NCBI RefSeq assembly: GCF_003814555.1
Contig: NZ_RKQN01000003.1
Coordinates: forward strand, 169,611 to 233,610
Reading direction: 5' to 3'
Length of the DNA: 64,000 nucleotides
Source: Vulcaniibacterium tengchongense
GTDB lineage: Bacteria; Pseudomonadota; Gammaproteobacteria; Xanthomonadales; Xanthomonadaceae
Shown: in pieces, positions 28,441 to 46,964 of the stretch
Layout of the letters: each line of letters opens with the position of its first letter
How positions within the stretch are numbered: the stretch's first letter is position 1
Program-made: the position numbers and the translations under genes
Notes under the pieces: generated by a model
What the model saw: only the letters and a program-made list of their open reading frames with translations
What the model was told of the DNA's origin: nothing
Database searches by the model: none

Positions 28441-28884
28441 CTACTCGCCCGCTTCGCGCACCACGAACTCGCCGCGCACGCTGCCGCCTTCCTTCAGCGT
28501 GAACTCCACCGCCACCTTCTGCCCCGCCCGCAGCGCTCCGTGCGGACGCATCAGCATCAGGTGCAGGCCGCCCGGCTGCAGCGTCGCCGCGCCGCCCGGC
28601 TCGATGCGCAACTCGGGCAGCGCGCGCATGCGGCTGACGCCTTCGACCACGCGGGTCTCGTGCAGCGACACCTCGGCGAACGCCGGGCTGCGCGCGCCGG
28701 CAACGGTCAGCGCCCGGGTGCAGGGATTCTCGATCCGGCCGAAGCCGGCCAGCATCGGCATTGCCATCGGCGGCCGGCGCAGCCAGGCATCGCGCACCTG
28801 CAGCCGGCATTCGTCCGCATGCGCGAACGGGGCGAAGGCGGACAGCGCCAGGCAGAGCAGCGGACGGGCGAGCGAGGTATGCAT
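28441..28884 (-). CDS. Periplasmic copper chaperone PCu(A)C
   Basis: This 147-residue protein has a signal peptide (about 1-23) and a PCu(A)C/DUF461 domain. The Cu(I)-binding motif H-X10-M-X21-H-X-M is exact: H75, M86, H108, M110. Such proteins hand copper to the CuA centre of cytochrome oxidase or buffer periplasmic copper. The gene stands alone between the thioesterase and the isomerase genes and diverges from the latter. Confidence 0.92.
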   Translation of the reverse strand: MHTSLARPLLCLALSAFAPFAHADECRLQVRDAWLRRPPMAMPMLAGFGRIENPCTRALTVAGARSPAFAEVSLHETRVVEGVSRMRALPELRIEPGGAATLQPGGLHLMLMRPHGALRAGQKVAVEFTLKEGGSVRGEFVVREAGE

Positions 28885-36674: not shown

Positions 36675-37832
36675 ATGAAACTGTCCCGCAGTACCCTTGC
36701 CGTCGCTCTGCTCGCCGCGCTGGCCGCTCCGGCCGCCCACGCCGAGATCACCATCGACGTGATCGGCGGTTCGGAAGTGTCCTTCGAGGGCCTGGTGCAG
36801 GCCGACTTCTACCAGTTCGACTCCGACACCATCGACTACGGCGCCGACTCCTCGTCCGACCTCGACGGCAGCGAGTACCTCAACGAGCTGCGCCGCGCCG
36901 AGCTGGTGCTCAAGGGCAAGGGCCCGGGCAACATCGAGTGGGTGCTGGGCTACGACGCCAAGGACGACAAGTTCCTCGACGTCAACGCCAAGTACAAGTT
37001 CGGCAACAACGCCAACCACTTCATCCAGGTCGGCCAGTTCAAGCAGCCCGGCGCGACGATGGAGGAGCTGTCGTCGACCAAGAACAACGACTTCATCTCC
37101 AAGTCGTCGATCACCAACACGCTCGGCACCGCGCGCCGCGTCGGCGCCCAGTACAACATCGGCGACGCCGATTGGGGCCTGACCGCCAGCTACTTCAGCC
37201 GCGAGCTGACCCGCAACCGCGAGCACGGCAACGGCTACGCCGTGCGCGGCTACTGGGCGCCGGTCAACGAGGCCGGCAACATCCTGCACCTCGGCGTCTC
37301 CTACCTGGACAAGGACACCGACGGCGACGCCCTGCGCCTGCGCGCCCGGCCGATGGCGGACATGGTGCCGACCCGCTTCGTCGACGCCAACATGAACCGC
37401 ACCGACCGCGCCAGCTTCGTCGGCGTCGAGGGCCTGTGGGTCCGCGGCCCGTTCAAGCTGCAGGCCGAGTACATGAGCACCGACGTCAAGCGCTACGGCG
37501 GCGCCGACGACTTCAGCGGCGACGGCTACTACGTCAGCGGCCTGTGGAACATCACCGGCGAGACCTGGGGCTACAAGGGCGGCGTGCCCACCACCGGCCT
37601 GCCGGACAACCCCGGCCTGGGCATGTGGCAGCTGGGCCTGCGCTACGACACGATCGACCTGACCGACGGCGCCGTGGTCGGCGGCGAAATGGACAGCATC
37701 ACCGCCGGCGTCAACTGGTACTGGCGCTCGAACTTCAAGTTCATGCTGAACTACGTCAAGGTCAACCAGGAAAAGGGCGTGCTCGAGGACAACCCGAACA
37801 TCATCGAAGCGCGCATGCAGTTCTATTGGTAA
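36675..37832 (+). CDS. Phosphate-selective porin (OprP/OprO family)
   Basis: This 385-residue outer-membrane protein has a signal peptide (cleavage near AHAE) and a C-terminal aromatic residue (MQFYW) typical of beta-barrels. The N-terminal pattern FEGLVQADFYQFD and later QFKQPGATMEELSSTKNNDF are of the OprP/OprO type. It would admit phosphate or polyphosphate to the periplasm for the PstS proteins encoded next. A Pho-box-like element precedes it and a terminator follows. Confidence 0.92.
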   Translation: MKLSRSTLAVALLAALAAPAAHAEITIDVIGGSEVSFEGLVQADFYQFDSDTIDYGADSSSDLDGSEYLNELRRAELVLKGKGPGNIEWVLGYDAKDDKFLDVNAKYKFGNNANHFIQVGQFKQPGATMEELSSTKNNDFISKSSITNTLGTARRVGAQYNIGDADWGLTASYFSRELTRNREHGNGYAVRGYWAPVNEAGNILHLGVSYLDKDTDGDALRLRARPMADMVPTRFVDANMNRTDRASFVGVEGLWVRGPFKLQAEYMSTDVKRYGGADDFSGDGYYVSGLWNITGETWGYKGGVPTTGLPDNPGLGMWQLGLRYDTIDLTDGAVVGGEMDSITAGVNWYWRSNFKFMLNYVKVNQEKGVLEDNPNIIEARMQFYW

Positions 37833-37868
37833 GTCTTTCGAATCCTCTCTCCCTCCCACGGATTCACC

Positions 37869-37896
37869 GGGCGCGGCTCTGCCGCGCCCTTTTTTT
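37869..37896 (+). terminator. Terminator after the porin gene
   Basis: GGGCGCGGC and GCCGCGCCC pair around TCT, followed by seven T. It separates the porin transcript from the pstS unit. Confidence 0.88.
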
Positions 37897-38013
37897 CTTC
37901 GCCCGCGGCGAACCGCGGCGGGATGCCGCGGCATCCCGCCGGTCCGCCGCCCTCCGGGCCCCCGGCCGCGCGGCAGAGCGCCGGCGGCGCACCGGACGCG
38001 CCCGCCGGCGCCG

Positions 38014-38066
38014 CCGTCACAACTCCGTCATGCGACTGCCGCGCTGCTGTCACGCAACCGTTATGA
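38014..38066 (+). promoter_or_regulatory. Two Pho-box-like elements ahead of the first pstS
   Basis: CGTCAC/CGTCAT (38015 and 38026) and TGTCAC/CGTTAT (38048 and 38059) are each 11-bp-spaced repeats of the PhoB half-site type. They end about 50 bases before the GTG start, a good distance for activation. Confidence 0.65.
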
Positions 38067-38113
38067 AATGCGCCGCGAACGGGCCCAGCCCGTCGTCACT
38101 CCAGGAGCCCACC

Positions 38114-39133
38114 GTGTTCAAAACCATCCAGTTCCGCCTCGCCGCGATCGCGCTGGCGGCCGGTTTCGCCGCCAACGCGCAGGCCGCCGACGTCACCGGC
38201 GCCGGCGCCTCGTTCGTCTACCCGGTCATGTCGAAGTGGTCGGCCGACTACGCCAAGGCCACCGGCAAGAAGGTCAACTACCAGTCGATCGGCTCGGGTG
38301 GCGGCATCGCCCAGATCAAGGCCGGCACCGTCGACTTCGGTTCCTCGGACGCGCCGCTGAAGCCGGAAGAGCTGGCCCAGTTCGGCCTGGCCCAGTTCCC
38401 GTCGGTGATCGGCGGCGTGGTGCCGGTGATCAACGTGCCGGGCGTGGCCTCCGGCGCGCTCAAGCTCGACGGCGAGACCCTGGCCAACATCTTCCTCGGC
38501 AAGATCAAGACCTGGAACGACCCGGCCATCGCCGCGCTCAACGGCGGCGTCAAGCTGCCGTCCACCAAGATCACCGTCGTCCACCGCTCCGACGGCTCCG
38601 GCACCACCTTCAACTTCGTGAACTACCTCTCCAAGGTCAGCCCGGAGTGGAAGCAGAAGGTCGGCGAAGGCACCGCGGTCAAGTGGCCGGTCGGCATCGG
38701 CGGCAAGGGCAACGAGGGCGTCGCCGCCTACGTCAAGCAGATCGTCGGCGGCATCGGCTACGTCGAGCTGTCCTACGCGCTGCAGAACAAGATGGCCTAC
38801 TCGCGCCTGAAGAACGCCGCCGGCAACTTCGTGCTGCCGTCCGACGAGACCTTCTCGGCCGCCGCGGCGAACGCCGAGTGGGGTTCGTCCAAGGACTTCC
38901 ACCTGGTGATGACCAACGCCCCGGGCGAGAACTCCTGGCCGATCACCGCGACCAACTTCATCCTGATGTACAAGCAGCCGAAGAACCCGGACGGCGCCAG
39001 GAACGCCAAGGAGTTCTTCCGCTGGGTCTACGCCAACGGCGACGCCCAGGCCAAGGCCCTGGACTACGTGCCGCTGCCGGACGCGCTGGTGCAGCAGATC
39101 GAGCAGTACTGGTCGGCGAACATGAAGTACTGA
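38114..39133 (+). CDS. pstS: Phosphate ABC transporter substrate-binding protein PstS (first copy)
   Basis: This 339-residue periplasmic phosphate-binding protein has a signal peptide (cleavage near AQAAD), the start ADVTGAGASFVYPVMSKW and phosphate-contact motifs ASF, GSGGG, FGSSD and HRSDGSGTTFNF. The start is GTG at 38114 with AGGAG upstream. It is about 65-70% identical by eye to the lipoprotein copy downstream, pointing to tandem duplication. It is followed by a terminator, so it may be made in excess over the transporter. Confidence 0.95.
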   Translation: MFKTIQFRLAAIALAAGFAANAQAADVTGAGASFVYPVMSKWSADYAKATGKKVNYQSIGSGGGIAQIKAGTVDFGSSDAPLKPEELAQFGLAQFPSVIGGVVPVINVPGVASGALKLDGETLANIFLGKIKTWNDPAIAALNGGVKLPSTKITVVHRSDGSGTTFNFVNYLSKVSPEWKQKVGEGTAVKWPVGIGGKGNEGVAAYVKQIVGGIGYVELSYALQNKMAYSRLKNAAGNFVLPSDETFSAAAANAEWGSSKDFHLVMTNAPGENSWPITATNFILMYKQPKNPDGARNAKEFFRWVYANGDAQAKALDYVPLPDALVQQIEQYWSANMKY

Positions 39134-39157
39134 GCGGCGGACACCGCTCTCCCCGAA

Positions 39158-39182
39158 AGGCGGGCTTCGGCCCGCCTTTTTT
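39158..39182 (+). terminator. Terminator after the first pstS
   Basis: AGGCGGGC-TTCG-GCCCGCCT is followed by TTTTT. The strong stem makes the first pstS largely its own transcript. Confidence 0.9.
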
Positions 39183-39219
39183 CCGCCCGTCGGAACGTTG
39201 CAGAAATGTGGCGGGCGCA

Positions 39220-39248
39220 TGTCATCGCGCTGTAACAAAAAGATCATC
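39220..39248 (+). promoter_or_regulatory. Pho-box-like element ahead of the second pstS
   Basis: GTCAT (39221), GTAAC (39232) and ATCAT (39243) are three half-site-like pentamers at exact 11-bp steps. They lie about 55 bases before the ATG at 39304. Confidence 0.6.
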
Positions 39249-39303
39249 AAATGGCGGCGTGCCGGCGGCGTGCGCCGGCTCACGTTTCCCACAGGAGCTG
39301 CGC

Positions 39304-40395
39304 ATGATCCCGACCCCGGCCCGCTTCGCCGCCCTTTCGCTCGCCCTCGCCCTGGCGCTGGCCGCCTGCAAGCCGGGCGACCAGACCACGACTCCGGCCG
39401 CCGGGGACGACGCGCAGGCCTCCGCCGCGGCGGCGGGCGACCGGGTCGCCGCCGAGATCACCGGCGCCGGCGCCACCTTCATCTATCCGCTGCTGTCGCG
39501 CTGGTCGGACGAATACCACAAGGCCACGGGCAACAAGATCAACTACCAGTCGATCGGCTCCGGGGGCGGCATCGCCCAGATCAAGGCCGGCACGGTCGAC
39601 TTCGGCTCCTCCGACAAGCCGCTGTCCACCGAGGAGCTGGCCCAGGCCGGCCTCGGCCAGTTCCCGTCGGCGATCGGTGGCGTGGTGCCGGTGGTCAACC
39701 TGGAGGGCCTGCAGCCGGGCCAGCTGCGCCTGACCGGCCCGGTGTTGGCCGACATCTACCTGGGCAAGATCAAGGCCTGGAACGACCCGGCGATCGCCGC
39801 GCTGAACCCGGGCGTGCCGCTGCCCGCGGCCAAGATCAACCTGGTCCACCGCTCCGACGGCTCCGGCACCACCTTCAACTTCGTCAACTACCTGTCCAAG
39901 GTCAGCCCGGAATGGAAGCAGAAGGTCGGCGAAGGCACCTCGGTGAACTGGCCGACCGGCATCGGCGGCAAGGGCAACGAGGGCGTCGCCGCCTACGTGA
40001 AGCAGATCAAGGGCTCGATCGGCTACGTCGAACTGGCCTACGCGACCGAGAACGGCATGGCCCACGCCCAGCTGCGGAACGCCGCCGGCGAGTGGGTGCA
40101 GCCGAGCGTGGAGTCGTTCCAGGCCGCCGCCGCGGGCGCCGACTGGAAGAGCGCGAAGGACTTCAACCTGGTGATCACCAACGCCCCGGGCCGGGGCGCC
40201 TGGCCGATCGCGGCGACCAACTTCATCCTCATGTACAAGCAGCCGAAGGACCCGCAGCGCAGCGCCGCGGCGCGGGCGTTCTTCAAGTGGGCGCTGGAGA
40301 ACGGCGCCGAACAGGCCAAGGCGCTGCACTACGTGCCGCTGCCGCCGGAACTGGTGCAGCAGATCGAGGCCTACTGGGCGAGCGAATTCAAGTGA
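39304..40395 (+). CDS. pstS: Phosphate-binding lipoprotein PstS (second copy)
   Basis: This 363-residue PstS has a lipobox (LALAAC, Cys about 22) instead of a plain signal peptide, so it should be anchored in a membrane, followed by a Thr/Ala-rich tether. All phosphate-contact motifs seen in the first copy are kept (GATF, GSGGG, FGSSD, HRSDGSGTTFNF). The pair implies a free periplasmic and an anchored phosphate receptor for one PstCAB. pstC follows after a 355-bp gap. Confidence 0.95.
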   Translation: MIPTPARFAALSLALALALAACKPGDQTTTPAAGDDAQASAAAAGDRVAAEITGAGATFIYPLLSRWSDEYHKATGNKINYQSIGSGGGIAQIKAGTVDFGSSDKPLSTEELAQAGLGQFPSAIGGVVPVVNLEGLQPGQLRLTGPVLADIYLGKIKAWNDPAIAALNPGVPLPAAKINLVHRSDGSGTTFNFVNYLSKVSPEWKQKVGEGTSVNWPTGIGGKGNEGVAAYVKQIKGSIGYVELAYATENGMAHAQLRNAAGEWVQPSVESFQAAAAGADWKSAKDFNLVITNAPGRGAWPIAATNFILMYKQPKDPQRSAAARAFFKWALENGAEQAKALHYVPLPPELVQQIEAYWASEFK

Positions 40396-40750
40396 CGCGC
40401 CGGCGCGTTCGCGCCGGGCGCGGGCGCCCTTGCCGGTGCGCCATCCCGCGCAAGCGGCGATCCCGCGACGTTGCCTTGCCGCTTCCCGGGCGGGCGGAAA
40501 CAACCGCAACAAGCGCAAAGCGACGTCACCGGATCCCCGCTTTCGCGGGAATGACGGCCCGGCAGACTCCGCCGCTTTCGCAGGAACGACGAACCCAGGG
40601 ACTTCCCCGCATTCGCGGGAATGACGGACCAGCAGAACGCCCGCTTGCGCGGGAAGCACGATCAGGATCCGCCCCAGCGGGAACGCCGAGCAAACGCAAC
40701 TCGCGCGCGCCCGACTGCCCGACGCCATCGCCCGGACGCCCACCCTTCGC
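40396..40750. repeat. REP-like hairpin cluster between pstS and pstC
   Basis: In this 355-bp gap four related palindromes of the form CCCCGC-TTTC-GCGGGAATGACGG occur at about 40534-40557, 40570-40591, 40604-40627 and 40639-40661, roughly 35 bp apart; copies two and four are diverged. A fifth copy lies at 33692-33713. They look like dispersed REP elements and may adjust read-through or mRNA stability between pstS and pstC. No gene is supported here. Confidence 0.7.
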
Positions 40751-41722
40751 ATGAACGCCACCGCCTTTCCCGTCCCCGCCTCGACCGACCGCGACGTCAA
40801 GGACGCGCGCGCCGACCGCGGCTTCCGCTGGCTGGTCACCGCCGCCGGCGTGTTCGTGCTGGTTTCGCTGGCCGCCGCCGCGCTGTCGATGCTGTGGGGC
40901 GGGCGCGAGGCCTTCGCCAAGTTCGGCATCGCCTTCCTGTGGACCGACGCCTGGGATCCGGTCGGTCTGAACTTCGGCGCGCTGGTGCCGATCTACGGCA
41001 CCCTGGTCACCGCCCTGATCGCGATGCTGATCGCGGTGCCGGTGAGTTTCGGCATCGCCATGTTCCTGACCGAGATCGCGCCGAAATGGCTGCGCGGGCC
41101 GATCGGCTCGGCGATCGAGCTGCTCGCCGGCATTCCCTCGATCATCTACGGCATGTGGGGCCTGTTCGTGCTGGTGCCGTACCTGAGCGAGCACGTGTAT
41201 CCCTGGGTCGACGCGCACCTGGGCCAGCTGCCGCTGGTCGGCACCCTGTTCGCCGGGCCGCCGCTCGGGCTGGGCATGGGCACCGCCGGCCTGGTGCTGG
41301 CGATCATGGTGATCCCGTTCATCGCCTCGGTGATGCGCGAGGTCTTCCTGACCGTGCCGGGGCGGCTGAAGGAGTCGGCCTACGCGCTCGGCTCGACCCG
41401 CTGGGAAGTGGTCTGGGACGTGGTCCTGCCCTACACCCGCTCGGCGGTGATCGGCGGCATCTTCCTCGGCCTGGGCCGCGCCCTCGGCGAGACCATGGCG
41501 GTGACCTTCGTGCTCGGCAACGCGCACGAGCTGACCGCGTCGCTGCTGATGCCCGGCAACTCGATCGCCGCGACCATCGCCAACGAATTCTCCGAAGCCG
41601 ATTCGGACATGTACCGCTCGGCGCTGATCGCGCTCGGCTTCGTCCTGTTCCTGGTCACCTTCGTGGTGCTGGCGGCGGCGCGGCTGATGCTGCGCCAGCT
41701 GTCGAAGAAGGAGGGCAACTGA
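40751..41722 (+). CDS. pstC: Phosphate ABC transporter permease PstC
   Basis: This 323-residue inner-membrane permease has six to seven hydrophobic segments and the EAA-type cytoplasmic loop around LKESAYALGSTRWEVVWDVVLP. The family motifs AGIPSIIYGMWG and LGRALGETMAV are present. It forms the channel with PstA. The stop overlaps the pstA start (TGATG). Confidence 0.97.
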   Translation: MNATAFPVPASTDRDVKDARADRGFRWLVTAAGVFVLVSLAAAALSMLWGGREAFAKFGIAFLWTDAWDPVGLNFGALVPIYGTLVTALIAMLIAVPVSFGIAMFLTEIAPKWLRGPIGSAIELLAGIPSIIYGMWGLFVLVPYLSEHVYPWVDAHLGQLPLVGTLFAGPPLGLGMGTAGLVLAIMVIPFIASVMREVFLTVPGRLKESAYALGSTRWEVVWDVVLPYTRSAVIGGIFLGLGRALGETMAVTFVLGNAHELTASLLMPGNSIAATIANEFSEADSDMYRSALIALGFVLFLVTFVVLAAARLMLRQLSKKEGN

Positions 41723-42573
41723 TGAGCGCCTCGCTGTACGGCTACCGCCGCGCCAAGAACCTCGTCGCGCAAGGGCTGGCGATCCTGGCCACCGCGTTCG
41801 GCCTGTTCTGGCTGGTATGGATCGTCTGGACCACGCTGAGCAAGGGCCTGGCTTCGATCAACCCGGACCTGTTCACCAAGATGACCCCGCCGCCCGGCGA
41901 CGAGGGCGGCATGCTCAACGCGTTCTTCGGCAGCGCGACGATGAGCCTGCTGGGCATCGCCATGGGCGCGCCGATCGGCGTGCTCGCCGGCACCTTCCTC
42001 GCCGAGTACTCGCAGAAGAGCTGGATCGGCAACACCGTGCGCTTCGTCAACGACATCCTGCTGTCGGCGCCGTCGATCGTGCTCGGCCTGTTCGTCTACA
42101 CCCTGGTGGTGGCGCAGATGGGCCACTTCTCCGCGCTGGCCGGCGCGATCGCCCTGGCCTTCATCGTCCTGCCGGTGGTGGTGCGCACCACCGACGAGAT
42201 GCTGCAACTGGTGCCGACGCAGATGCGCGAGGCCGCGCTGTCGCTGGGCGTGCCGCAATGGAAGGTGATCGTGCAGGTGCTGTACCGCTCCTCGCTGCCG
42301 GGCATCGTCACCGGCATCCTGCTGGCGCTGGCCCGCATCTCCGGCGAGACCGCGCCGCTGCTGTTCACCGCGCTCAACAACCAGTACTGGACCACCGACG
42401 TGTTCTCGCCGATGGCGAACGTTCCGGTGGTGATCTTCCAGTACGCGATGAGCCCGTACGAGAGCTGGCACACCCTGGCCTGGGCCGGCGCCTTCGTCCT
42501 CACCCTGTTCGTGCTCTGCGTCAGCCTGCTGGCGCGCGCGATCGTGCTGCGCAACAAGATCAGCCATGACTGA
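41722..42573 (+). CDS. pstA: Phosphate ABC transporter permease PstA
   Basis: This 283-residue partner of PstC has six hydrophobic segments, [21 protein letters not shown] and the EAA loop [20 protein letters not shown], then [14 protein letters not shown]. Its start overlaps the end of pstC by a base and its end overlaps pstB by 8 bases, so expression is coupled. Confidence 0.97.
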
Positions 42574-43417
42574 CCTCTCGACCCCTTCCCTCGCCCGGAA
42601 CCCGGCCATGAACGACGCCCGCCTCGCGGTCGCCACTCCCGAGCGCGCGCCCGCCGCGGCCGCGCCGGTCAAGCTGTCGGCGCGCGACCTGAACTTCTAT
42701 TACGACAAGTTCCACGCGCTCAAGGACATCAACCTCGACATCCCGGAAAAGCGCGTCACCGCGCTGATCGGCCCGTCGGGCTGCGGCAAGTCGACCCTGC
42801 TGCGCATCTTCAACCGCATCTACGCCTTGTACCCGAAGCTGGAGGCCCGGGGCGAGGTGCTGCTGGACGGCGAGAACATCCTCGACCCGAAGTACCCGAT
42901 GAACCGGCTGCGCAGCAAGGTCGGCATGGTGTTCCAGAAGCCGGTGCCGTTCCCGATGACGATCTACGAGAACATCGCCTACGGCATCCGCCACCACGAG
43001 CGCCTGTCGAAGAGCGAGATGAACGACCGGGTCGAGCAGGCGCTGCGCCAGGGCGCGCTGTGGGACGAGGTCAAGGACAAGCTGGGCCAGAGCGCGCTCG
43101 GCCTGTCCGGCGGCCAGCAGCAGCGCCTGTGCATCGCCCGCGCGGTGGCGCTGCGCCCCGACGTGCTGCTGCTGGACGAGCCGACCTCGGCGCTGGACCC
43201 GATCTCGACCGGCCGCATCGAGCAGCTGATCGAGGAGCTGAAGCAGAACTACACGATCGCCATCGTCACCCACAACATGCAGCAGGCCGCGCGCGTGTCC
43301 GACTTCACCGCCTTCATGTACCTGGGCGACCTGATCGAGCACGGCCCGACCGAGGTGATCTTCTCCAACCCGACCAAGCAGCAGACCGAAGACTACATCA
43401 CCGGTCGCTTCGGCTGA
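42566..43417 (+). CDS. pstB: Phosphate ABC transporter ATPase PstB
   Basis: This 283-residue ABC ATPase drives phosphate import. It shows Walker [10 protein letters not shown] (about 71-79), Q-loop [21 protein letters not shown], signature [14 protein letters not shown] and Walker [13 protein letters not shown]. The first 35 residues are an Ala/Pro-rich lead; an alternative start at 42608 would shorten it by 14 residues. It follows pstA with an overlap. Confidence 0.97.
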
Positions 43418-43514
43418 CGCGGGCCGCTCGCGCGGGCCGGAGCAGTCGGAGCCGGCGGTACGCGCCAGGGACGCACCGAAGCCTTCGCAAGGCGCCAACG
43501 GACAAACACAGCCC

Positions 43515-44225
43515 ATGAGCACCCAGATGCACGACCACATCGTGAAGAGCTACGACGAAGAGCAGCGGCGCCTGCTGAACGAAACCCTGCGCATGGGCGA
43601 GATGGCCGCTTCGCAGCTGGAGGCCGCGCTGGACGTGGTCCAGCGCCGCGACGACCGCGCCGCCGAGCGCATCATCGCCAACGACGAGGCGATCGACGCG
43701 CTCGAGCAGGAGATCAGCCACGACGTGATGAAGCTGGCGCTGCGCGGGCCGATGGCGCGCGACCTGCGCGAGATCCTCGCCGCGATCCGGATCGCGTCCG
43801 ACATCGAGCGCGTCGGCGACTACGCCGCGAACGTGGCCAAGCGCTCGATGGCGCTGAACCTGGCGCCGCCGCTGCCGCACGTCAGCGGCCTGCACGCGAT
43901 CGGCACGCTGGCGGTGCAGCAGGTGCGCGACGTGCTCGCCGCCTACCGCGACAACGACGTCGAGCGGGCCCGGCGCGTGCGCGCGCGCGACGCCGACCTC
44001 GACGTCGCCTACACCGCGCTGTTCCGCGAACTGCTGACCTACATGATGGAGGACGCGCGCAGCATCACGCCGTGCACGCACCTGCTGTTCATGGCCAAGA
44101 ACATCGAGCGCATCGGCGACCACGCCACCAACATCGCCGAGAACGTGTGGTTCCTGGTCAAGGGCGACGACCACCTGCCGCCGCGCGAGAAGCGCGACGA
44201 GAGCAATACCGCGACCGGTCCCTGA
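43515..44225 (+). CDS. phoU: Phosphate signalling regulator PhoU
   Basis: This 236-residue, all-helical protein has the two PhoU repeats with the conserved E/DRxGDYAxNVAKR and ERIGDHATNIAENV metal-binding motifs. PhoU links PstB activity to the PhoR sensor and limits phosphate uptake. It closes the pst operon; phoB and phoR are not in the window. Confidence 0.96.
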   Translation: MSTQMHDHIVKSYDEEQRRLLNETLRMGEMAASQLEAALDVVQRRDDRAAERIIANDEAIDALEQEISHDVMKLALRGPMARDLREILAAIRIASDIERVGDYAANVAKRSMALNLAPPLPHVSGLHAIGTLAVQQVRDVLAAYRDNDVERARRVRARDADLDVAYTALFRELLTYMMEDARSITPCTHLLFMAKNIERIGDHATNIAENVWFLVKGDDHLPPREKRDESNTATGP

Positions 44226-44811
44226 CCGCCGCCTGTCGGTTCCCGGCAGGACGCCCCCTGGGTTGCACGCATCGGGCCGGCCGCCACGAGGCGGCCGCGT
44301 TCGTTTCCCGCGTTCGTTGGTTCCCCCACCCGTCCGCGCGCGCGCCTCCAGCGCTGCCGCACGCCCATCCACGGCTTCTGCGTCGACGCCCGATGCCGGC
44401 GCGCCTGCGCTGCGTCGCAACATGCGCCCAAGCTGAACGGATCCCGCATCCGCTCGGCCTGGCCGGGCTCTTTCCCGCCCGCCCTGCCTCTTGGGGGATG
44501 TGATTGCCGGCGCGCCGCGCCATCATCGGCGCAGGAGGACCGCTCATGCCGCATGCCGCACCGCCGCCCGGGCGCGATCCGCAGGCCGCCACGCCGGATC
44601 GTTGCCGGAACTCCATCGTGGGGATCGGCTGCGCGCTCGCGCGGGCGCGGCCCGCGGCGGCGTCGCCGGGCGGCCGCGGCCGGGACGCGAAGCGAAGGCC
44701 GCCCGCCCCGCTTCCCGGCCGCCCGCGCATGCCCGCGCCGCCGAATCCCCTTCCGGCCCGATCTTCGGCGCCGCCCCCGCGGGACATCCCGCCCTCAACC
44801 GGAGTACACCC
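44226..44811. other. Intergenic region between phoU and the HvfA-like gene
   Basis: About 590 bases without a gene I can support. GGCCGCC-ACGA-GGCGGCC (44279-44296), followed by GCGTTCGTTT, may be a weak phoU terminator. An AGGAGG before ATG 44547 opens a frame that runs into the next gene out of frame and has no protein-like character. Confidence 0.5.
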
Positions 44812-45198
44812 ATGTCGAATCACAGCAAGTCCGCTACGTTCGCCCTCGGCGCCGCCCTGGCCGGCGGCCTCGCCCTGTCCTCGTCGGCGTTCGCGATGAC
44901 CGACCTGGCCGGCGGCTACATGCTCGGCGCGGCCGACCAGGCGGCCAAGGCCGCGGAAGGCAAGTGCGGCGAGGGCAAGTGCGGCGTCGAGAAGATGGAC
45001 ACCGACAAGGACGGCCGGGTCTCGCAGGCCGAGTTCGCCGCGGCCCACGACGGCGACGCCAGCAAGTTCGCCGGCCACGACGCCGACGGCGACGGCTTCC
45101 TCAGCGCGGACGAGCTGAAGGCCAAGGCCGGCAAGCGCGCCGACAAGGCCGGCATGGAAGGCAAGTGCGGCGAGGGCAAGTGCGGCGGAATGGCGTAA
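44812..45198 (+). CDS. HvfA-like RiPP metallophore precursor with two EF-hand loops
   Basis: This 128-residue exported protein has a signal peptide (about 1-28). Two EGKCG motifs (49-58: C52, C57) follow it and two more (116-125: C119, C124) stand near the C-terminus. Between them lie two canonical EF-hand loops, [12 protein letters not shown] (63-74) and [12 protein letters not shown] (90-101). EGKCG cysteines are the sites that MNIO enzymes convert into oxazolone/thioamide or thiooxazole groups binding copper (HvfA/bufferin-type families). The downstream DUF692 and DUF2063 genes make this assignment firm. The EF-hand core is unlike the minimal HvfA and suggests calcium or a second metal. 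Confidence 0.88.
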
Positions 45199-45235
45199 TC
45201 GCCGGTTTTCGCGCGCCGCAGTGCGCGATCCGCGG

Positions 45236-45259
45236 CCTCCCCCTGCCCGCAGGGGGAGG
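45236..45259 (+). promoter_or_regulatory. Hairpin between precursor and MNIO genes
   Basis: CCTCCCCCTG-CCCG-CAGGGGGAGG is a 10-bp perfect stem with no T-run after it. It lies 38 bases past the precursor stop. It may slow read-through or protect the 3' end of precursor mRNA, giving more precursor than enzyme. Confidence 0.5.
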
Positions 45260-45373
45260 TTGCGCGAATACGAGGAGCGCGCCGATGCCGCCCCGGCAGG
45301 CCTGCCCGGGCCGCATCGTGCACGATGCGCACGCGCGCCTTGCCACAGACGGGCAACGTTCTCCCCCGGCGAC

Positions 45374-46225
45374 ATGACCTTTCCGCTTGCTGCCACCGCC
45401 GCCGGCCTGGGCCTGCGCCGCGCCCTGCTCGGCCCGCTGCGCGCCGCCGCGCCGGGCGACTACGACTTCCTGGAATGCGCGCCGGAGAACTGGATCGGCG
45501 TCGGCGGGCCGCTCGGCGAGGCGCTGGCCGAGCTGGCGGCGCGGGTGCCGCTGGTCTGCCATGGGCTGTCGCTGTCGCTGGGCGGTTTCGCGCCGCTGGA
45601 CGAGGCCTTTCTCGCCCAGGTGCGGCGGTTCCTCGACCGCCATCGCGTCGCCCTGTACAGCGAGCACCTGAGCTACTGCGCCGACGACGGCCAGCTGTAC
45701 GACCTGCTGCCGATCCCGTTCACCGAGGAGGCGGTGCGCCACGTCGCCGCGCGCATCCGCCGCACCCAGGACCTGCTCGGCCGCCGCATCGCGGTGGAGA
45801 ACGTGTCCTACTACGCCGCGCCGCACCAGGCGATGGCCGAGATCGACTTCCTCAACGCAGTGCTGGCCGAGGCCGACTGCGACCTGCTGCTGGACGTCAA
45901 CAACGTCTACGTCAACGCGGTCAACCACCGCTACGACCCGCGCGATTACCTCGCCGCGCTGCCGGGCGAACGCATCGCCTACCTGCACGTGGCCGGGCAC
46001 TACGACGAAGCCGAGGACCTGAAGGTCGACACCCACGGCGCGCCGGTCAAGGACGCGGTGTGGGGCCTGCTGGCGGAAACCTACCGCCGCTTCGGCCCGC
46101 GCCCGACCCTGCTCGAGCGCGACTTCAACTTCCCGCCCTACGCCGAACTGCTCGACGAACTCGCGGTCGTCCGCCGCCTGCTCGCCCGGGCGGCGCCCGC
46201 GGCCGCGCGCCATGCCCATGCCTGA
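45374..46225 (+). CDS. MNIO (DUF692) peptide-modifying enzyme, HvfB-like
   Basis: This 283-residue TIM-barrel multinuclear iron oxidase shows the family metal-site pattern: E38 (ECAPENW), H63 (CHGLSLSLG), H98 (SEHLSY), E142 (VENVSYY), D174 ([11 protein letters not shown]), H205 and H209 (LHVAGH), D219/H221 (DTHG) and E248. These enzymes oxidise cysteines of their precursor peptide. It lies between an EGKCG precursor and a DUF2063 gene, the usual trio. ATG 45374 is chosen by length and family start; no strong ribosome site is visible. It overlaps the next gene by 14 bases. Confidence 0.92.
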
Positions 46226-46964
46226 CGCGCCCGAGCGCCTGCGCGCGCAGCAGCTCGAACTGACCCGGCACCTGCGCGATCCGGCAAACGCGCCCGCGCC
46301 CGCCGGCGTCGAGGAACGGCGCCTGGCCGTCTACCGCGAACTGCTGTTCAACAACATCGAAGGCTTGCTCGCCGGGAATTTTCCGGTGATCCGCCGCCTG
46401 CTCGGCGAGGAATGGCCGGCGCTGGCGCGCGCGTTCTACCGCGACCACCGCTGCCGCACCCCGCTGTTCCCGGAGATCGCGCGCGAATTCCTGCGCTACC
46501 TCGAAGGGCGCGAGGACCTGCGCCCGCCGTTCCTGGCCGAGCTGGCGCATTACGAATGGGTCGAGCTGGCGCTGCAGATCGCCGAGGCCGCGCCGCCGCG
46601 CGACGGCGCCTGCGATCCGCTCGAGGGCGTGCCGCGGCGGTCGCCGCTGGCCTGGCCGCTGGCCTACCGTTGGCCGGTGCACCGCATCGGCCCGGACTAC
46701 CGGCCGGACGCGCCGCCGCAGGCGCCGACCCTGCTGCTGGCGCGCCGCCAGGCCGACGGCGCGGTGCGCTTCTCCGAGTTGAGCCCGCTCGCGTTCCGCC
46801 TGCTCGAACGCCTGGACCAGGCGCCCGCGTCGAGCGGCCGCGAGCAGTTGCTGGCGCTCGCGCGCGAGGCCGGCATCGAGGCCGGCGCCGGCTATCTCGC
46901 GCAAGGCTCGGCGCTGTTGCGGCAGATGCGCGAGGCCGGCGTCATCGCGTACGCGCCGGCCTGA
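46212..46964 (+). CDS. DUF2063 putative DNA-binding domain protein, HvfC-like
   Basis: This 250-residue protein has an N-terminal DUF2063 domain (about 8-105: [29 protein letters not shown]) and a C-terminal winged-like part ending in [12 protein letters not shown]. In MNIO clusters this protein binds the precursor leader and presents it to the DUF692 enzyme, despite its old name. The start overlaps the MNIO gene; a second ATG at 46218 is equally possible. No DoxX-type HvfE gene follows. Confidence 0.9.

Follow-up and report, generated by a model that had tools for sequence, protein, structure and literature searches.

Why should a precursor of a copper-binding peptide class carry a pair of calcium-type EF-hands between its cysteine motifs? 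The question is raised by a cassette of three genes in Vulcaniibacterium tengchongense (GCF_003814555.1, NZ_RKQN01000003.1, 169,611-233,610). The 64,000 nt of forward-strand DNA that were analysed are referred to as the window, and all coordinates below are positions in it. A sequence-only reading had assigned the precursor to the HvfA/oxazolin type, with an EF-hand pair, and had seen its MNIO enzyme and DUF2063 partner next to it; this description is borne out by the present analysis.

The precursor and its modifying enzymes

The first gene of the cassette (44812-45198, plus strand, like all features of the cassette) encodes a precursor of 128 residues, recognised from its open reading frame, the NCBIfam and Pfam models given below and 66 distinct relatives of the same layout. 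It starts with a Sec-type signal, read off the sequence and not from a dedicated predictor, and an L..GY element (residues 1-37; 44812-44922), whose conserved columns make it a candidate region for recognition by HvfC: Y36 is invariant in the alignment, and G35, L32 and F27 are nearly so. Then follow a 10-residue stretch with two EGKCG motifs (residues 49-58; 44956-44985), the EF-hand pair (44998-45114), with loop 1 at residues 63-74 (44998-45033) and loop 2 at residues 90-101 (45079-45114), and a second 10-residue EGKCG stretch (residues 116-125; 45157-45186). Each of the exactly four cysteines lies in an EGKCG motif. The content and coordinates of this arrangement, i.e. two intact loops bracketed by paired motifs, were thereby verified, with Pfam and NCBIfam scores above the cut-offs: the HvfA EGKCG repeat model NF050137 reaches 36.6 bits (cut-off 19.5) and the Pfam EF-hand models exceed their curated values. 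The full-length HvfA equivalog NF050188 scores 25.4 against a cut-off of 95, a shortfall to be expected from the inserted core.

In the AlphaFold model the EF-hand pair (residues 57-110) is confident and the N- and C-terminal parts are of low confidence, so that both tails are predicted to be disordered. The entering helix of the first EF-hand is about one turn long and is joined directly to the EGKCG motif. The PDB fold matches listed for the model are EF-hand proteins, with weak E-values; together with the canonical loop ligands the predicted fold identifies an EF-hand protein that is predicted to bind calcium. The best PDB sequence matches are to lanmodulin and are confined to the EF-hand pair. 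The precursor lacks the proline at loop position 2, whereas lanmodulin lacks EGKCG motifs, and the LanM family model gives 25.5 bits where 135 are needed, which places the precursor outside that family; lanthanide binding was rejected on this ground.

The second gene (45374-46225) encodes an MNIO enzyme of the HvfB family (NF003818, 426 bits against a cut-off of 360; PF05114, 348 bits). Its closest solved structure is 3BWW (E = 5.8e-75), a relative of HvfB (PMC13419390). The DVNN and VDTHG residues are invariant over 109 relatives and would, by motif rather than by structure, correspond to the Asn, Asp and His that are required for catalysis in HvfB (PMC13419390). The third gene (46218-46964, possibly starting at an earlier ATG, 46212) encodes the HvfC partner, a DUF2063 protein with an RRE-like domain (NF050145, 294 bits against a cut-off of 142; PF09836 and PF22106; DUF2063 and NGO1945_C domains) that matches 3DEE. 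An EGKCG-repeat precursor with a Sec-type signal, alongside an HvfB-type MNIO and a DUF2063-RRE partner, thus places the cassette among the captophorin (HvfA/oxazolin) systems. The enzymes had been read as lying directly behind the precursor gene; they do follow it, with a gap of 175 nt before the MNIO gene. The host genome contains one MNIO match and one EGKCG-family match. By homology, modification of the EGKCG cysteines of the precursor is well supported.

A link to copper handling had also been sought in a PCu(A)C gene. This gene is real (28441-28884, minus strand), but it lies about 16 kb away, beyond many unrelated genes and outside the locus; the link was dropped, as the gene is distant from and unlinked to the cassette.

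Relation to described systems

The combination of EGKCG motifs and EF-hands had been thought to be possibly undescribed, which is not the case. Antoine et al. (2025; PMC12452194) reported a second type of EGKCG precursor, in which a short, unstructured EGKCG domain is followed on its C-terminal side by two EF-hands; these Buf_EGKCG|EF-hand chimaeras are found beside MNIO genes, and a role of calcium was suggested by reference to EfhP (PMC12452194). EfhP of P. aeruginosa (PA4107) has been studied since 2014, and a shared operon with DUF692 and DUF2063 genes has been suggested for it (PMC4053335); the protein contains four EGKCG repeats (PMC11559002). It binds calcium with a Kd of 13.7 uM and is likely a molten globule without calcium that folds with it (PMC9132961). 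The Buf_EGKCG|EF-hand_5 type, which includes EfhP/PA4107 with PA4106 and PA4105, shares with the cassette in the window the signal, the EGKCG repeats, the two EF-hands and the MNIO and DUF2063 neighbours. Like these chimaeras, the window precursor has an EGKCG domain ahead of its two EF-hands, and its gene neighbours that of an MNIO. As published, however, the EF-hands only follow the N-terminal EGKCG domain, whereas in the window precursor EGKCG motifs also lie behind the pair, which therefore does not form the C-terminal end. The published loop positions and the related Pseudomonas loci suggest that EfhP itself has this N-only layout. The bracketed subtype, with EGKCG on both sides of the EF-hand pair, apparently has no published description so far, although an earlier description may exist in subscription journals or supplements, which lay largely outside the search.

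HvfABC (oxazolin), FonABC (fontiphorin) and gonophorin, grouped as captophorins in PMC13097082, share with the cassette the HvfB and HvfC families, the EGKCG repeats and the 10-residue C-terminal end. Their precursors lack the EF-hand core, and modification has been demonstrated for them, whereas here it is predicted. The earlier suggestion of copper binding through cysteine-derived heterocycles holds for the class insofar as its peptides bind copper; the fon, hvf and ngo EGKCG products are now assigned as 5-thiooxazoles, revising an earlier oxazolone/thioamide assignment (PMC13097082).

Three architectures and their constraints

Relatives were collected by reading loci and by a scan of named genomes limited to the best 80 loci, so that the numbers given here are counts and not frequencies. 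The resulting 142 distinct precursors (the scan contributing its best 80 loci) could be divided into three architectures: 66 with a bracketed EF-hand pair, 47 with EGKCG on the N-terminal side only (N-only) and 29 without EF-hands. Three further precursors, in which one loop is degenerate, were left out. The bracketed sequences all lie beside an MNIO gene; in the bracketed loci that were read the MNIO was present in 71 of 71 and the partner also in 70. Most of their hosts are Lysobacteraceae (Pseudoxanthomonas, Luteimonas, Lysobacter, Vulcaniibacterium and Thermomonas), next to Rhodanobacteraceae and a few Pseudomonas. Within the family of the window, 88 of 149 genomes contain the EGKCG family and all 88 of these an MNIO.

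Conservation of the EGKCG motifs in orthologues, which had been named as the test that could refute the proposal, was examined, and few columns of the alignments are conserved as strongly as the motifs. E54, G55, C57 and G58 of the N-terminal stretch are invariant over 32 relatives, as are E116, G117, C119 and G120 of the C-terminal stretch over 38; the EF ligands are invariant as well. A 10-residue EGKCG stretch follows the EF-hand pair in the window precursor and in all 66 bracketed sequences. The mature parts of 145 distinct related precursors contain 796 cysteines, of which 793 belong to an EGxCG-type motif. In the bracketed set, all six positions checked have canonical residues in 131 of the 132 EF loops. 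These counts exclude a chance pattern. One bracketed precursor (L034:5153-5596) has an extra cysteine just after EF loop 1 (RAECRAHH), outside EGKCG. The L..GY element occurs in all three architectures (60/66 bracketed, 29/29 EF-less and 43/47 N-only) and may be the site recognised by the enzymes.

The spacing on the N-terminal side is rigid: the last N-terminal cysteine precedes loop 1 by 6 residues in 53 of the 66 bracketed precursors, as in that of the window, and by 9 residues in all 47 N-only ones; the spacing between the two loops is 27 in 53 of the 66. This fixed approach, together with motifs at both ends of the pair, could suggest that calcium-induced folding unites the N- and C-terminal thiooxazole pairs into one calcium-gated copper site. 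We regard such a joint site as very unlikely, since the C-terminal side is loose, with 9-28 residues separating loop 2 from the first cysteine behind it, and since disorder is predicted for the tails.

The MNIOs of the N-only type form a clade largely separate from that of the enzymes studied here. In this respect the bracketed precursors of Pseudomonas (L111, L117, L122 and L146) stand apart: they have a spacing of 9 residues, like the N-only type, a different C-terminal end (AAIES/AAIEP) and an MNIO clade of their own. Their spacing and enzymes perhaps point to a separate origin. For 25 N-only EfhP-like genes (L125-L144, other Pseudomonas loci) no MNIO was found within at least 2.5 kb downstream; their products may be unmodified or may be modified from elsewhere.

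An exchangeable core at one locus

The cassette lies between phoU and the RNase T gene. This position is widely kept: pstC-pstA-pstB-phoU lies upstream in 51-53 of 63 bracketed and 10 of 21 EF-less loci, and the RNase T gene follows the cassette in 55 of 63 and 18 of 21, respectively. In six of seven checked genomes without EGKCG and MNIO hits the RNase T gene follows phoU within 0.8 kb, and the cassette has therefore been gained or lost as a unit. In the window the phosphate locus (36675-44225) consists of an OprO/P-type porin gene and two tandem substrate-binding protein genes, then PstC, PstA, PstB and PhoU, and it is syntenic with the cassette across the Lysobacteraceae. A functional tie to phosphate uptake was rejected: phoU and the RNase T gene are adjacent without the cassette too, and position alone explains the synteny.

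On the MNIO tree, which comes from a quick search and does not distinguish gain from loss, well-supported branches force at least six changes of the bracketed label. Enzymes of the same clades accompany core-containing and core-free precursors at the same locus; in genus g20, the precursor at this position is EF-less in one species and bracketed in four, and the signals and GGMA ends match. Judged from these sequences, the EF core is an exchangeable plug-in module between the repeats of an otherwise HvfA-like precursor, because it is present or absent at one locus, even within a single genus. It is unlikely to be needed for modification, since the same enzyme clades serve both kinds of precursor, and it is dispensable, given the EF-less precursors at the same locus. 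Thus a folded calcium domain can be swapped in or out of EGKCG precursors at a single orthologous locus, and natural pairs with and without the core are available to probe its role.

That the core comes and goes among relatives would also suit a passive spacer, an acidic, soluble domain that keeps copper-loaded tails apart and dissolved, with calcium structural and without a regulatory role. EGKCG products do aggregate and precipitate with copper (PMC13097082), and the bracketed precursors are more acidic than the EF-less ones (mean net charge -4.1 vs -1.3). The near-perfect retention of the ligands of both loops goes beyond the needs of a spacer, however, and the fixed N-side spacing is not expected from it either, which makes this explanation improbable.

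The literature on EfhP suggests instead a calcium sensor, or a dual sensor of calcium and a metal, in which calcium alters the shape of the core, partners pass the signal on, and the EGKCG cysteines contribute sensing of a metal or of redox state, not bulk buffering. EfhP mutants lose calcium responses, the protein exposes a hydrophobic surface with calcium (PMC9132961), and dual sensing of calcium and iron has been proposed (PMC11559002). Still, the bracketed precursors contain more cysteines than the N-only, EfhP-like ones (mean 5.9 vs 3.5) and always adjoin an MNIO, and the EF-less versions at the same locus fit a buffer better. We consider a sensor unlikely as well.

Proposed role of the EF-hand core

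The reading that we favour, giving it about an even chance, is that of a captophorin cassette with an optional EF-hand pair, in which thiooxazole formation takes place in the cytosol, calcium-dependent folding in the periplasm, and the tails buffer copper. HvfC would recognise the signal/leader region of the precursor, and HvfB would act in the cytosol, converting the four EGKCG cysteines oxidatively into 5-thiooxazoles. Free calcium is low in the bacterial cytosol. There the EF core, on the assumption that the precursor is calcium-free, would be unfolded and hinder neither the enzyme nor Sec export. After export, periplasmic calcium would fold the EF-hand pair and leave two short thiooxazole tails, which would bind copper as a periplasmic buffer. 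That the core is open during modification and export and folded outside is expected from the low cytosolic calcium and from the unstructured state of EfhP without calcium. Each tail contains two EGKCG repeats, the size of substrate modified by FonBC (PMC13097082).

The buffer mechanism builds on the gene content, the conservation of motifs and ligands, the fixed N-side geometry, the linkage to the enzymes and the presence or absence of the core in place, all of which are observed, and it agrees with the predicted folded core with disordered tails. In relatives, 5-thiooxazole formation and copper binding (PMC13097082) and calcium-dependent folding of EfhP (PMC9132961) have been demonstrated, from which we infer copper binding and calcium-timed folding for the window precursor. 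Against it count the EfhP work, which was read as calcium sensing, and the EF-less precursors that make the core dispensable. Its most specific element, namely that calcium serves as a compartment signal that keeps the core unfolded for the enzyme and Sec in the cytosol and folds it outside, is put forward tentatively, as possible rather than probable.

If the mechanism is true, EfhP, so far studied as an unmodified calcium sensor, would natively be a thiooxazole copper protein. The calcium-binding study (PMC9132961) used protein that was made in E. coli and lacked the signal peptide, yet the neighbours of the EfhP gene are a modification enzyme pair.

Features of the DNA around the precursor gene

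A terminator-like hairpin 3' of phoU (44278-44297) suggests that the cassette is a transcription unit apart from phoU. A search for a sigma-70-type promoter upstream gave no match, and a shared upstream regulatory motif was discarded, as the top shared words could be 3' coding sequence of phoU in the loci with short gaps. Between the precursor and MNIO genes lies a strong hairpin (45236-45259), a perfect 10-bp inverted repeat CCTCCCCCTGCCCGCAGGGGGAGG that occurs once in the genome; the intergenic fold has z = -4.7, and the hairpin possibly sets the ratio of precursor to MNIO expression. As a general feature such a hairpin is not decisive, with z < -2 in 44% of the bracketed loci.

Gene conversion between the two EGKCG copies was considered and found weak: the copies are identical in 9 of 43 loci where 3.2 were expected, and for codon-level similarity p = 0.07. 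Finally, in the window the two EGKCG coding stretches on either side of the EF core are identical over 32 nt (44955-44986 and 45156-45187), and recombination between such identical stretches could insert or delete the core.
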